Assembly: GCA_007126035.1 (NCBI GenBank)
Contig: SLCC01000066.1
Location: 65,104 to 129,103, forward strand
Direction: 5' to 3'
Length of the DNA: 64,000 nucleotides
From: Gemmatimonadota bacterium
GTDB taxonomy: Bacteria; Gemmatimonadota; Gemmatimonadetes; Longimicrobiales; RSA9
Shown: positions 3,603 to 8,815 of the stretch, piece by piece
How the letters are laid out: every line of letters begins with the position of its first letter
Position numbering within the stretch: position 1 is the first letter of the stretch
Program-made: the position numbers and the translations under genes
The notes under the pieces: model-generated
Seen by the model: the letters and a program-made list of their open reading frames with translations, nothing else
Database searches by the model: none
What the model was told of the DNA's origin: nothing

Positions 3603-4610
3603 TTGCTGCCGGTCAACGATATAGCTGTAGACCTCGGCACAGCGAACACCCTCGTCTACGTGAAGGGCGAGGGGATCGTCATGAACGAGCCTTCGGTAGT
3701 CGCCTTGGAGCGCGGGTCGAACAGGATCAAGGGCATCGGCCTCGAAGCGAAGCGTATGCTGGGCCGCACGCCGGAAGGGATCATGGCGATCCGCCCGCTC
3801 AAGGACGGGGTCATTGCAGACGTGGACATCACGGAAGTGATGCTCCGACACTTCCTTCGCCAGGTCACGTCGAAACGGATCTTCCGGCTCAAGCCGCGGG
3901 TAATCGTGGGGGTACCGTCGGGCATCACCGAGCTCGAGCGGCGGGCGGTACGTTCCAGTGCCGCCGCGGCGGGAGCGAAGGAGGTCTACATGGTTGCCGA
4001 GCCCATGGCCGCGGCCATAGGCGTGGGTCTGCCAGTGGACACGCCCACGGGCAACATGGTGATAGACATCGGTGGTGGCACCACGGAGATCGCGGTGATC
4101 GCGTTGAACGGGATCGTGAGCGACACGTCGATCCGGGTGGGCGGTGACGAGGTGGACGCCGCCATCGTGACGTTCCTGCGCAAGAACTACAACCTGCTGA
4201 TCGGCGAGCCCACGGCCGAAGCGATCAAGATCCAGATCGGCTCGGCGTTCACGAGCGGCGAGGAACGGGAGATGGAAGTGAAGGGCCGGGACCTGGTGAG
4301 CGGGATCCCGAAGACGGTGCGGGTGCATTCTCAGGAGATCCGGGAGTGTATCCAGGAGCCGGTGCAACAGATCGTGGACGCGGTGCGGCGCGCGCTGGAG
4401 ATCACGCCTCCCGAGCTGGCCTCCGACATAGTCGACCGGGGGATCGTCATGACGGGCGGCGGGTCCCTGATCCGGGGGCTGGACGAGTTGCTGGCGCACG
4501 AGACCAACCTGCCGATCCACATCGACGAGGAACCGCTGACGTGCGTGGTCCGTGGCGCGGGTCGTATCCTGGATGACCTGCCCCGCTTCCGCGGCGTGCT
4601 GGCGGTGTGA
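3603..4610 (+). CDS. mreB: Rod shape-determining protein MreB
   Basis: MreB is the bacterial actin homologue that organises lateral cell-wall synthesis at the inner membrane. The 335-residue protein has the phosphate 1 loop (DLGTANTLVYVKG), the phosphate 2 loop (DIGGGTTEIAV) and the adenosine motif (TGGGSLIRGLD). Length is normal and no lesion is seen. The start is uncertain: TTG at 3603 gives LPVNDIAVDLG but has no ribosome-binding site. The frame is open further upstream, and GGGGAG (3565-3570) stands 8 bases before a CTG at 3579. That start would add an N-terminal LPSWLQSG segment resembling the membrane-binding helix of other MreBs. mreC and mreD follow. Confidence 0.95.
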   Translation: MLPVNDIAVDLGTANTLVYVKGEGIVMNEPSVVALERGSNRIKGIGLEAKRMLGRTPEGIMAIRPLKDGVIADVDITEVMLRHFLRQVTSKRIFRLKPRVIVGVPSGITELERRAVRSSAAAAGAKEVYMVAEPMAAAIGVGLPVDTPTGNMVIDIGGGTTEIAVIALNGIVSDTSIRVGGDEVDAAIVTFLRKNYNLLIGEPTAEAIKIQIGSAFTSGEEREMEVKGRDLVSGIPKTVRVHSQEIRECIQEPVQQIVDAVRRALEITPPELASDIVDRGIVMTGGGSLIRGLDELLAHETNLPIHIDEEPLTCVVRGAGRILDDLPRFRGVLAV

Positions 4611-4624
4611 GCAACGGGTGAGCT

Positions 4625-5509
4625 GTGCCTGAGTATTTCGACCATTCCACGCGAAGGGGCTGGAAGAGCCTGGGTATCGCGCTGGCGTTGGTCGTCGTCG
4701 CCCTGTTCCTTTCGCTCCTGCCGCATGAGCAGCAGGGGCCGATCCGCCAGGCAATCCGGGGCACGCTCCTGCAGCCGTTCATCAGCGCGCAGGCCGAGCT
4801 GGCGGCCAGGAGTGGTCGGGCGGTGGACGTGCCAGCCTTGCGGGCGGAGCGAGACTCCCTGTCCGCGGTGGTCGCAGCCCAGGCCAGCCTGGCGGAAGAG
4901 AACCGACGGCTGCGTGCGCTTCTCGGTCTCCTGAACCGGGCGCCGGAAGGGTTCATCCCCGCCGAGCTGTTGCGGGTGGGCACCCGGGGCGGAGAGAGCA
5001 CGTTCATCCTGAACGTTGGTCGGGACGACGGAGTCACGTCATCCAGCCCGGTCATAGCGGCGGGGGGGCTGATCGGGGTGGTATGGGAGGTGGGCCGGCG
5101 CTCGTCGCAGGGCATCGACTGGACGCATCCCGAGTTCCGGGCCAGCGCCATGACGGCGGATGGGCAGACCTACGGGATGGTGGAGCCGCGGCGGGGGCGC
5201 TACCGCGAGGAGGACCAACTGGCGCTGAGGGGCACGCCCTTCCACGTGGATGTGCGTCCGGGTACGCGGGTGCTGACGTCGGGGCGCGGGGGCGTCTTTC
5301 CCCGCGGCATCCTGCTGGGTACGGTGGTCGGGATAGAGGACGCGGACACAGGATGGCGCAAGAGCTACCTGATCCGCCCTGCCGTGCGCCCCGAGGCGGT
5401 GACTTACGTCCTGGTAGGCATTCGGGACGCCAGCGAGTTGGAAGATCTATCGCCCCTCTGGACCGGATCAACGACGCCAATGGAAGACGGTGCCGGAGGT
5501 AACCGGTGA
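4625..5509 (+). CDS. mreC: Rod shape-determining protein MreC
   Basis: MreC is the periplasmic scaffold of the elongation complex. The 294-residue protein has a short cytoplasmic N-terminus and one membrane segment (about residues 15-32, GIALALVVVALFLSLL). A coiled coil follows at about residues 70-106 (heptads around RAERDSLSAVVA and LAEENRRLRALLGLL), then the beta-rich MreC domain with the usual GGLIGVV segment. It starts with GTG 14 bases after mreB and overlaps mreD by 4 bases (GTGA). Confidence 0.92.
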   Translation: MPEYFDHSTRRGWKSLGIALALVVVALFLSLLPHEQQGPIRQAIRGTLLQPFISAQAELAARSGRAVDVPALRAERDSLSAVVAAQASLAEENRRLRALLGLLNRAPEGFIPAELLRVGTRGGESTFILNVGRDDGVTSSSPVIAAGGLIGVVWEVGRRSSQGIDWTHPEFRASAMTADGQTYGMVEPRRGRYREEDQLALRGTPFHVDVRPGTRVLTSGRGGVFPRGILLGTVVGIEDADTGWRKSYLIRPAVRPEAVTYVLVGIRDASELEDLSPLWTGSTTPMEDGAGGNR

Positions 5510-5979
5510 AGGACGGAGCAGGGTTCTGGGTTTTCATTGGCCTCCTGGTGATCGTCCACTTCTTTCTGCATCTCACACTCGGTCTGGACGCGCGTGCGCC
5601 GGACCTGCTGGTGGTGGCGGTGCTGTTGGGTGCCCGGTCGCTGTCGGGCGGAGCGGCGGCGGGACTGGGTTTCGGCCTGGGGCTGCTCGAGGACGCGGTC
5701 TCGGTAGCGGCGTTCGGCGCGGCCGCGGCCACGTTCACCATCATAGCCTACTTGGGCGCCCGGACCCGGGACCTCATGGTGGGAGACAGCCTGGTGTTCG
5801 TCTTCGTCTATGTGTTCATCGGGAAGTGGGCCCAGGCGGCCATGTACTACGGACTGGCGGGAGGAGTGCGGAGGGGTGAGCCGGTGGAGGCGCTCCTGAT
5901 GAACGCTCCACTACAGGCCATATACGCCGCTGCCGCAGGGCTGGTGGCAGTGGGGATCTACCGGGCGGTACAACGCTAG
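5506..5979 (+). CDS. mreD: Rod shape-determining protein MreD
   Basis: MreD is a small integral membrane protein of the elongation complex. The 157-residue product is very hydrophobic, with about five predicted membrane segments and little conserved sequence, as is usual for MreD. The assignment rests mainly on size, topology and position between mreC and the PBP2 gene. It starts at GTG 5506 inside the mreC stop. Confidence 0.85.
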   Translation: MKDGAGFWVFIGLLVIVHFFLHLTLGLDARAPDLLVVAVLLGARSLSGGAAAGLGFGLGLLEDAVSVAAFGAAAATFTIIAYLGARTRDLMVGDSLVFVFVYVFIGKWAQAAMYYGLAGGVRRGEPVEALLMNAPLQAIYAAAAGLVAVGIYRAVQR

Positions 5980-6027: not shown

Positions 6028-7797
6028 ATGGAGCGAGATCCAGGTGACCCGCGTCCCCCTCGCGCCCGCAGTGCCCTGGCCGTGGGCGGAGCCGGTCTGG
6101 GAATCCTGTTCCTCGTGTTCGTCCAGATGCAGGTCCTGAACAGCCCGCTGCACGAGGTCGCCAGCGGCTCCACCCTGCGACCGGAGCGGATTCCGGCTGC
6201 CCGCGGCGTCATCCTGGATCGCCACGGCTCGATCCTGGCGGAGACGGTGCCCGCATACGCCGTGTATCTGACCGCTGATTCCCGGGCGTCCGCTCTGGCT
6301 ACACTGGATCGGCTCGTCCCCCACCTGGACCTGGACGACGACGAGATCGACCGGCTGGCTGCCGGTGACTGGGCCGGCGGGCGGAAGCTGCTGGTCTCCG
6401 CGGACGTGCCGGTCGAGGTGGCAGCGCTGTTACTGGAGCGGCGGGCCGAGTTGCAAGACGTGCAGATCGAGACCTGGCCAAAGCGCCACTACCCTGCCGG
6501 CCGCAGCGCGGCCCATGTGGTCGGGGTCGTGGGACCTCCCGGCGTGGGCGACGAGCAGGACGGTCCAGGTCGAAAGCCGTTGCCGAGAATGGTCGGGCGC
6601 CTGGGTGTGGAGCGGCGGTACGACGAGAGGCTCCAGGGCAGGGACGGGATGAGGTATCTGGAGGTGGACGCCGAAGGGGTTGCAACCCGTAGCCTGGACC
6701 TGCCCGCCGCAGTGCCAGCCGTGCCGGGCCAAGAGCTGAGGCTCAACCTGGACCTGGCGATCCAGCGCGCCGTCGCCGAAGCCATACCGGAGGACGAGCG
6801 GGTAGCCGTGGTGGCGTTCGAGGCTGCGACCGGCGAGGTCCGGGTACTGTACTCGTCTCCGAGTTACGACCCCGTTCGGCTCCCTGCGCCCGTGGTCCAG
6901 GACGGGTGGCCGTCCGTGACGGAGGACTGGTATGGGTCGAGCAACCGCGCGGTCGAGGCCAGGTATCCACCCGGACCCGCCATGAAGGTGGTCACCGCTG
7001 CGCTGGCGCTGGGACTCGGCCTTCACGACGGTGAGACGGTCATGCCGGTGCCATGCCGCGGTGGCATGTCGTACGGCGATCGCTACCTGCGCTGCTCCGA
7101 TTCGCAGGGGCACGGGCTGTTGGACCTGGGAGCAGCGACGTCGCAGAACTGTCACGTCTACTTCTATCAGCTCGGCCTCAAGATCGGCCCCGACAACATA
7201 TTGGCGGCGGCTGGGCGGCTGGGGCTCGGCCGCGGGACCGGGGTGGACCTGCCGGACGAGGCGCTGGCGGTGCTGCCTGCCGCTACCTCCACCGGGAACG
7301 CCGGGTCCGCCGGGTCCCTTAGCGGGACCGACGCCATGAGGATGGCCGCAGGTGTGGGGCTGGTTGAGGTGTCGCCCCTCGAGATGGCACATCTCTTCGC
7401 CATGCTCGTCACGGACCGGCCGGTGCCACGGCCCCGGCTCGCGACCCACGCCCCAATCGAGCTGGACGACCGGGTCAACCTCGTCATCTCACCGGCGGAC
7501 CGGGCCTGGCTGAGGGCCGCCCTGACCCGGGAAGAGCAGCCCTCCTGGCAGTGGAGTGGCGTCTCAGGCTCGACCGCCCGCGCCGACGTCCCGGTCGTAG
7601 AGTGGTGGCTCGGATTGGCGTCACCTGGTGATGGCGCGCCCGAGCTCGTGGTGGCGGTGGTGGTGGAGGGCGGCACCGGGACGACGCGGTCGGCGGAGCT
7701 GGCGGGGCTGGTGGTGGAGCTGTACAGGGAAGGTTTTGCAGACACCCGACGCGCGGCCCGCTCCCCTTTCCGATCACCGGTCCAGCCCGGGACGTAG
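6028..7797 (+). CDS. mrdA: PBP2-like protein with degenerate transpeptidase motifs
   Basis: The 589-residue product has PBP2 (MrdA) architecture. It has one N-terminal membrane segment (about residues 15-35), the PBP2 dimerisation-region signature RGVILDRHGSILAE (about residues 55-68), and a C-terminal transpeptidase-like domain from about residue 230. All three catalytic motifs are altered. SxxK reads PAMK (P317-K320 in YPPGPAMKVVTA). SxN/SxD reads NCH (N374-H376 before VYFYQL). KTGT reads VSGS (V512-S515). The flanking sequence is still PBP2-like and the frame is intact, so it is a full-length, probably catalytically dead transpeptidase homologue rather than a decayed pseudogene. It follows mreD directly. 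rodA, usually adjacent, is absent; accD comes next. It may act as a scaffold or glycosyltransferase partner (inference). Confidence 0.85.
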   Translation: MERDPGDPRPPRARSALAVGGAGLGILFLVFVQMQVLNSPLHEVASGSTLRPERIPAARGVILDRHGSILAETVPAYAVYLTADSRASALATLDRLVPHLDLDDDEIDRLAAGDWAGGRKLLVSADVPVEVAALLLERRAELQDVQIETWPKRHYPAGRSAAHVVGVVGPPGVGDEQDGPGRKPLPRMVGRLGVERRYDERLQGRDGMRYLEVDAEGVATRSLDLPAAVPAVPGQELRLNLDLAIQRAVAEAIPEDERVAVVAFEAATGEVRVLYSSPSYDPVRLPAPVVQDGWPSVTEDWYGSSNRAVEARYPPGPAMKVVTAALALGLGLHDGETVMPVPCRGGMSYGDRYLRCSDSQGHGLLDLGAATSQNCHVYFYQLGLKIGPDNILAAAGRLGLGRGTGVDLPDEALAVLPAATSTGNAGSAGSLSGTDAMRMAAGVGLVEVSPLEMAHLFAMLVTDRPVPRPRLATHAPIELDDRVNLVISPADRAWLRAALTREEQPSWQWSGVSGSTARADVPVVEWWLGLASPGDGAPELVVAVVVEGGTGTTRSAELAGLVVELYREGFADTRRAARSPFRSPVQPGT

Positions 7798-7843
7798 CCG
7801 GAACTGCCCACTTGCCCCCCCGTCCCTGAGTGGCGCCTGCCCT

Positions 7844-7871
7844 TTGCCCGGGCGCGAGAGCAGGATATCTT
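7844..7871 (+). promoter_or_regulatory. Candidate promoter for accD-folC
   Basis: TTGCCC (7844-7849) and TATCTT (7866-7871) are separated by 16 bases. Each box matches the sigma-70 consensus at 4 of 6 positions. The site lies in the 148-base gap after the PBP2-like gene and would give a leader of about 67 bases before accD. Nothing else was recognised in this gap. Confidence 0.5.
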
Positions 7872-7945
7872 ACTTGTTTCCCTGCAGGAGAGCCTGGGCA
7901 GCTGCGGCCGCGAGGGGCTGGTGGCGACCCGGGCGAGGATTGGCA

Positions 7946-8815
7946 ATGGCCTGGTTCCGAAAAGAGAAGCGCAAGCTTACGTCGGCGGCGCGGCGTGAGG
8001 TGCCGTCCGACGTCTTTGAGAAGTGTCCGGAGTGCGGGGAGATCCTGTACCGGAACCGACTCTCGCAGAACGCACAGGTATGCCCGGCATGCGGCCATCA
8101 CCACCGTATGGAGGCGGAGGGCTACGTCGAACTACTCATAGATGAGGGCGGTTTCACGGAAACGGACCGCGGCATGAAGAGCAGCGATCCGCTGGGATTC
8201 TTCGACCTGAAGCCGTACCCGCAACGTCTGGCGGCGGCGGAGCGGAAGTCGGGTCGGGGTGACGCGGTGATCACCGGCTACGGTCCGTTGGAGGGCATGC
8301 CGGTGAACCTGGCGGTGATGGACTTCTCCTTCATTGGCGGCAGCATGGGCTCGGTGGTGGGCGAGAAGATCACGAGGGCGGCGCGTCGGTCGGAGCGGGA
8401 GGGGGAGCCCCTGATCGTGGTGAGCGCGTCGGGCGGCGCGCGGATGATGGAGGGGGTGCTGTCGCTGATGCAGCTGGCGAAGACGTCGGCAGCGCTTGCC
8501 CGTCTGCACGAAGCCCGGATCCCGTACGTTTCGATCCTGACGGACCCGACCACGGGCGGAGTGACCGCTTCCTATGCCATGCTGGGTGATGTCAACATGG
8601 CGGAGCCCGGGGCCTTGATCGGGTTCGCCGGTCCGCGGGTCATCGAGCAGACGATCAAGCAGGCGCTGCCGGAGGGGTTCCAGCGCTCGGAGTTCCTGTT
8701 GGAGCACGGGATGGTGGACGTGATCGTGGACCGGCGGGCCATGAAGGGCCGGGTGGCTGCGTACCTGCGCCACATGCTCGGGTTGCCCGAGCCAGCGGTC
8801 GAGAAGAGCGATTGA
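7946..8815 (+). CDS. accD: Acetyl-CoA carboxylase carboxyltransferase, beta subunit
   Basis: AccD forms, with AccA, the carboxyltransferase that makes malonyl-CoA for fatty acid synthesis. The 289-residue protein begins with the expected zinc ribbon (CPEC near residue 31 and CPAC about 20 residues on). It then shows the crotonase-type fold with SGGARMMEG and LTDPTTGGVTASYA. The ATG at 7946 (MAWFRKEKRK) was chosen because it gives the normal AccD N-terminus and follows GAGGAT. It overlaps folC by TTGA at 8812-8815; an accD-folC pair is common in bacteria. accA is not in the window. Confidence 0.96.
   Translation: MAWFRKEKRKLTSAARREVPSDVFEKCPECGEILYRNRLSQNAQVCPACGHHHRMEAEGYVELLIDEGGFTETDRGMKSSDPLGFFDLKPYPQRLAAAERKSGRGDAVITGYGPLEGMPVNLAVMDFSFIGGSMGSVVGEKITRAARRSEREGEPLIVVSASGGARMMEGVLSLMQLAKTSAALARLHEARIPYVSILTDPTTGGVTASYAMLGDVNMAEPGALIGFAGPRVIEQTIKQALPEGFQRSEFLLEHGMVDVIVDRRAMKGRVAAYLRHMLGLPEPAVEKSD

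Follow-up and report, generated by a model that had tools for sequence, protein, structure and literature searches.

A full-length PBP2 is encoded beside mreBCD in a member of the Gemmatimonadota, and none of the three motifs of a catalytic D,D-transpeptidase is present in it: SxxK, SxN/D and KTG are replaced by PxxK, NCH and VSG, respectively. The question raised by this locus is whether the gene is decaying, is an error of the assembly, or encodes a protein that is kept for something other than its chemistry. The stretch of DNA analysed, 64,000 nucleotides and hereafter called the window, belongs to a 3.88 Mb draft genome (218 contigs, 98% complete, contamination estimate 4.2%).

The gene starts with ATG and is open for 589 codons, with no internal stop. 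The product has a membrane helix, a PBP_dimer pedestal and a transpeptidase domain, as seen in Pfam (PBP_dimer, 2e-27; Transpeptidase, 6e-25; both above cut-off), in the AlphaFold model and in the PDB matches. Against TIGR03423, the NCBIfam equivalog, it scores 301 bits, below the cut-off of 455. Orthology to the mre-locus PBP2 is supported by synteny and by the tree, in which the protein falls among mre-locus copies, beside the operon copy of genome G009 (support 66, modest); a foreign origin of the gene was rejected on the same grounds. The features are collected in Table 1.

Table 1. Features of the mre locus, in positions of the window.
Feature	Position	Strand	Remarks or basis
mreB	3603..4610	+	172/172 near-invariant residues retained
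mreC	4625..5509	+	20/20 near-invariant residues retained; Pfam
mreD	5506..5979	+	just below Pfam cut-off; synteny
Catalytically dead PBP2, mre-locus orthologue	6028..7797	+	589 aa; Pfam, synteny, tree, AlphaFold
Transmembrane helix	6052..6138	+	residues 9-37; AlphaFold model, regional identity
Hinge stretch	6139..6201	+	residues 38-58; conserved N-R motif gone; among the most eroded regions
Pedestal (PBP_dimer)	6190..6690	+	residues 55-221; 21/26 near-invariant residues retained
Transpeptidase domain	6805..7686	+	residues 260-553; 36/50 near-invariant residues retained
SxxK site	6976..6987	+	P317-A-M-K320
Predicted zinc ligand C343	7054-7056	+	retained
Predicted zinc ligand C356	7093-7095	+	retained
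Predicted zinc ligand H362	7111-7113	+	retained
SxN site	7147..7155	+	N374-C375-H376, AAC TGT CAC
Predicted zinc ligand C375	7150-7152	+	retained
10-column deletion after residue 506	7543..7548	+	relatives' GGTA...SLEH; directly before KTG strand
KTGT site	7561..7572	+	V512-S513-G514-S515, GTC TCA GGC TCG
Gap where relatives have rodA	7798..7930		between PBP2 and accD
accD	7931..8815	+	conserved downstream neighbour

The catalytic serine is replaced by proline, P317 (CCC, 6976-6978), within the stretch YPPGPAMK, of which K320 is retained. S317, S374 and K512 are at least 95% invariant among 55 comparison sequences, and the near-invariant residues I441, Q443, H524 and F527 have been lost from the window protein in addition. 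In alignments with solved PBP2s and with relatives the protein can be followed without a break through all three motif sites, so that a frameshift is no explanation; sequencing error was likewise rejected, as seven residues are altered at three places within a continuous alignment. To judge from these alignments, three separate losses in an otherwise alignable PBP2 exceed chance. The initial annotation had described the loss of all three motifs in a full-length PBP2 beside mreBCD, and the codons, Pfam and the alignments confirm this description, which needs no correction apart from a start coordinate placed three bases ahead of the P317 codon.

Signs of a pseudogene (stops, frameshifts, lost coding signal) are absent across all 589 codons, and GC content by codon position is like that of the neighbouring genes (GC3 0.83 versus GC2 0.52). 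The branch leading to the window PBP2 alone measures approximately 1.6-1.9 substitutions per site, without a stop or frameshift. Of all single substitutions possible in this gene, some 2-3% create a stop, and a neutral divergence of 6-9% would bring one in with 95% probability; independent shuffling of the codon positions gave 8 stops on average and, in 2000 trials, never an open frame. Should even some of the excess change postdate the loss of catalysis, a frame left open by chance would be improbable. The tree branches of the operon PBP2 are 1.87 for the window protein and 0.45 for G009, as against 0.27 and 0.14 for a second PBP2 (PBP2b, see below) of the same two genomes. A seven-genome comparison gave, for the window genome (G000) and G009, respectively, 0.36 and 0.17 for mreC, 0.60 and 0.26 for RodA, 0.27 and 0.14 for PBP2b, and 1.62 and 0.44 for the operon PBP2. 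The window lineage is thus about twofold fast overall, and the dead PBP2 nearly fourfold. A fresh pseudogene or an artefact is unlikely, and the earlier judgement that the gene is not a fresh pseudogene is supported by the open frame, the divergence, the coding composition and an apparently well-folded model.

The AlphaFold model (pLDDT 86, pTM 0.83) is that of a complete PBP2, confident across most of the fold, and its top PDB matches are PBP2s, among them the PBP2-MreC complex 5lp5. Two of the predicted zinc ligands, C343 and C375, show no variation among the 81 sequences compared. Of all parts, the membrane helix has held up best in comparison with the sister sequence, with an identity to intact operon copies of 0.46 compared with 0.52 in the sister (29 residues, and hence noisy). 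For the region 312-383 the identity is 0.55 to relatives compared with 0.69. The hinge (0.30 compared with 0.58) is strongly eroded; it and the later stretches of the transpeptidase domain (0.31-0.35 compared with 0.56-0.69) are where erosion has gone furthest. The rate of change has risen to about the same degree in the pedestal and in the transpeptidase domain, so that no binding surface stands out. That fold, helix and metal-site ligands are kept despite so large a change in sequence argues for a structural role.

In the relatives the gene order is mreBCD-PBP2-rodA-accD-folC. The window lacks rodA between PBP2 and accD, and tblastn found no RodA remnant in 7798-7930. A full-length rodA is located outside the mre operon (G000:C14:6960-8216, L016); its product retains 75 of 77 near-invariant residues and places inside the family's own RodA clade, indicating that the gene has moved and is not foreign, and contamination was rejected as its source. 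Since MreB and MreC retain every near-invariant residue scored (Table 1) and RodA nearly all, the rest of the Rod system is alive.

Three dimer-domain PBPs are present in the genome: the window PBP2, PBP2b on contig C195, and FtsI on C130, where FtsW is also found. PBP2b (G000:C195, L015:11162-13096) has intact motifs (PPGSTFK, SCN and KTGT) and is the second, intact PBP2 for which the initial annotation had proposed a search; its neighbours are shared with G009, the nearest relative, and contamination was rejected on this basis. It is probably PBP2b that supplies the chemistry in this genome. The hinge arginine of PBP2b is gone (R62M), and valine replaces histidine at an aligned zinc-ligand column (H386V), with another histidine nearby. 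PBP2b copies cluster closer to the PBP2s of another family than to the operon copies, a hint of ancient duplication or transfer.

All twelve genomes of the family were searched. Six of them (G001, G002, G004, G008, G009, G010) carry an operon PBP2 with intact motifs, and G001, G002, G009 and G010 have PBP2b as well. The operon PBP2 is absent from another five (G003, G005, G006, G007, G011), in which PBP2b is the only PBP2 and mreD is directly followed by rodA, as is visible from mreC in four of them and from rodA in G007; these loci (L070-L073, L089, L091, L093, L094) keep mreBCD-rodA-accD. As the operon PBP2 has intact motifs in all the other family genomes that have kept it, the loss is confined to the window lineage. 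A first scan of the genome contigs with the protein alone as query returned nothing. Across the order (154 genomes) nothing more than 41% identical to the window PBP2 was found; 20 further second copies all have the motifs, and none of 80 GTDB loci has the dead form (77 with all motifs, one KTA variant, two truncated). A clade-wide pseudo-PBP2 is rejected by these searches, and in these data the dead form stands alone, in a single draft genome. The initial annotation's suggestion that the non-catalytic PBP2 is conserved in its clade is not supported: the annotation had named relatives with intact motifs as evidence to the contrary, and such relatives were looked for and found within the family. 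Its further point, that catalysis had been lost in the elongasome PBP, stands as to the loss but has to be qualified, given the intact PBP2b and the relatives that delete the operon copy.

Three observations were made in passing. A Gemmatimonadota PBP2 (L143:3368-5815) has KTA in place of KTG, with SxxK and SxD intact; a PBP2 match in a genome of the same order (G109:C333:2642-4084) contains one in-frame TAA; and one record titled Gammaproteobacteria (L159), probably mis-named or mis-binned, has a Gemmatimonadota-like PBP2 locus.

The reading we favour, with a probability of about 0.5, is that the dead PBP2, anchored in the membrane, serves the Rod complex as a non-catalytic partner and was kept after PBP2b took over cross-linking. 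The take-over would have freed the operon PBP2 from catalysis, which explains how its active site could be lost; the dead protein would then have been retained, holding RodA by the membrane helix and/or MreC by the pedestal, with cross-links supplied by PBP2b. That the protein is left over from take-over by a paralogue is suggested by the intact PBP2b, the departed rodA and the five family genomes without an operon PBP2. A structural partnership is supported by the intact PBP2b and Rod genes, the lack of stops, the GC pattern, and the fold, zinc ligands and helix that are kept; it is weakened by the restriction to a single draft genome, by the loss being found in no relative, by the eroded hinge and by a rodA that is no longer encoded alongside. 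Upon inhibition of PBP2 in E. coli, RodA becomes toxic through a futile cycle (PMC5549755); by analogy, such toxicity would oppose a structural partnership unless another transpeptidase is at hand. The dead PBP2 may still have the activator role toward the SEDS polymerase that the initial annotation suggested, as its membrane helix is well kept, but in its simple form, acting on RodA, this role is weakened by the loss of the hinge N-R, by the position of rodA outside the operon and by the toxicity of a Rod system with inactivated PBP2. Only tentatively do we go further and propose a natural elongasome pseudo-transpeptidase maintained by selection, in which the job of PBP2 is split, the dead copy activating or positioning the SEDS polymerase while the paralogue cross-links.

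The main rival to a structural partnership is that the gene is a dying relic, dispensable given PBP2b, under weak residual selection and yet to acquire a stop. Five genomes of the family manage with mreBCD-rodA-accD and PBP2b as sole PBP2, so a role of the operon copy, if any, is not universal, and decay stays a live explanation. Moreover, 18 near-invariant residues and ten alignment columns are gone, divergence is strongest in the C-terminal half, and the dead form is conserved in no relative. A relic would nevertheless have to have passed through very large divergence without a stop or frameshift, while retaining zinc ligands, membrane helix, fold and a normal coding composition, and for these reasons we consider this course of events less likely than a structural partnership.

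It could also be proposed that binding to RodA has been lost while binding to MreC, PBP2b or newly made wall persists, so that the protein would brake the Rod complex or serve it as a decoy. The missing hinge N-R and relocated rodA, in a gene that still lies beside mreC, would fit this, as would the finding that PBP2 both activates (interface I) and inhibits (interface II) RodA (PMC10257715); the best-kept part, however, is the membrane helix, through which RodA is likely to be contacted, and such a regulator seems improbable. A changed chemistry, in which the pocket binds or cuts something else through other residues, might draw on K320, C375 and the relatively well-retained region 312-383, but with no nucleophile at the SxxK site, the KTG strand motif gone and no alternative motif recognised it is very unlikely. 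Equally hard to credit is an assembly, binning or read error: the genome is a fragmented draft with some estimated contamination, but the seven altered residues fall at three distinct sites with the frame intact, the gene order on both sides is shared with relatives, and G009 is the nearest relative by both mreC and PBP2b.

The dead PBP2 is thus real, unusual and not conserved in its clade; its function we only infer. The case for an essential structural role of class B PBPs, apart from their chemistry, has come mainly from engineered mutants. With a natural dead PBP2 and an intact partner in one genome, the structural and catalytic roles would be separated by evolution itself, and comparison with the relatives that deleted the operon PBP2 would reveal when the structural one is required.

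Among known systems, the protein resembles PBP2/MrdA (TIGR03423, PF03717 + PF00905) in its position after mreBCD, domain order, fold, zinc-site ligands and tree placement, and differs in lacking the catalytic serine, SxN, KTG and hinge N-R, and in the absence of an adjacent rodA. PBP2b is a member of the same family, approximately 33-35% identical, but has intact motifs and falls in a clade apart, which has conserved neighbours of its own. In A. baumannii PBP2, a zinc site (D350, D365, H371, C384) stabilises the transpeptidase domain, and its loss abolishes rod shape (PMC9974482). The window protein likewise has a cysteine at the x of SxN/D, a histidine and upstream ligands; in contrast to that catalytic enzyme, its C343/C356/H362/C375 belong to a domain that is dead, and their metal is a prediction. 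Class B PBPs have been proposed to activate SEDS enzymes independently of their catalysis (PMC8078798; PMC10257715). No paper fitting a natural catalytically dead class B PBP was found among the open-access papers searched. A system that works like the one proposed here is B. subtilis PBP2B(S309A): this class B PBP is non-catalytic, yet it builds the division complex and supports division, the cross-links being made by a second PBP, PBP3 (PMC5656894). That protein is a division PBP mutated at one position in the laboratory, rather than a natural elongasome pseudoenzyme; by analogy, the dead PBP2 would be its natural counterpart.
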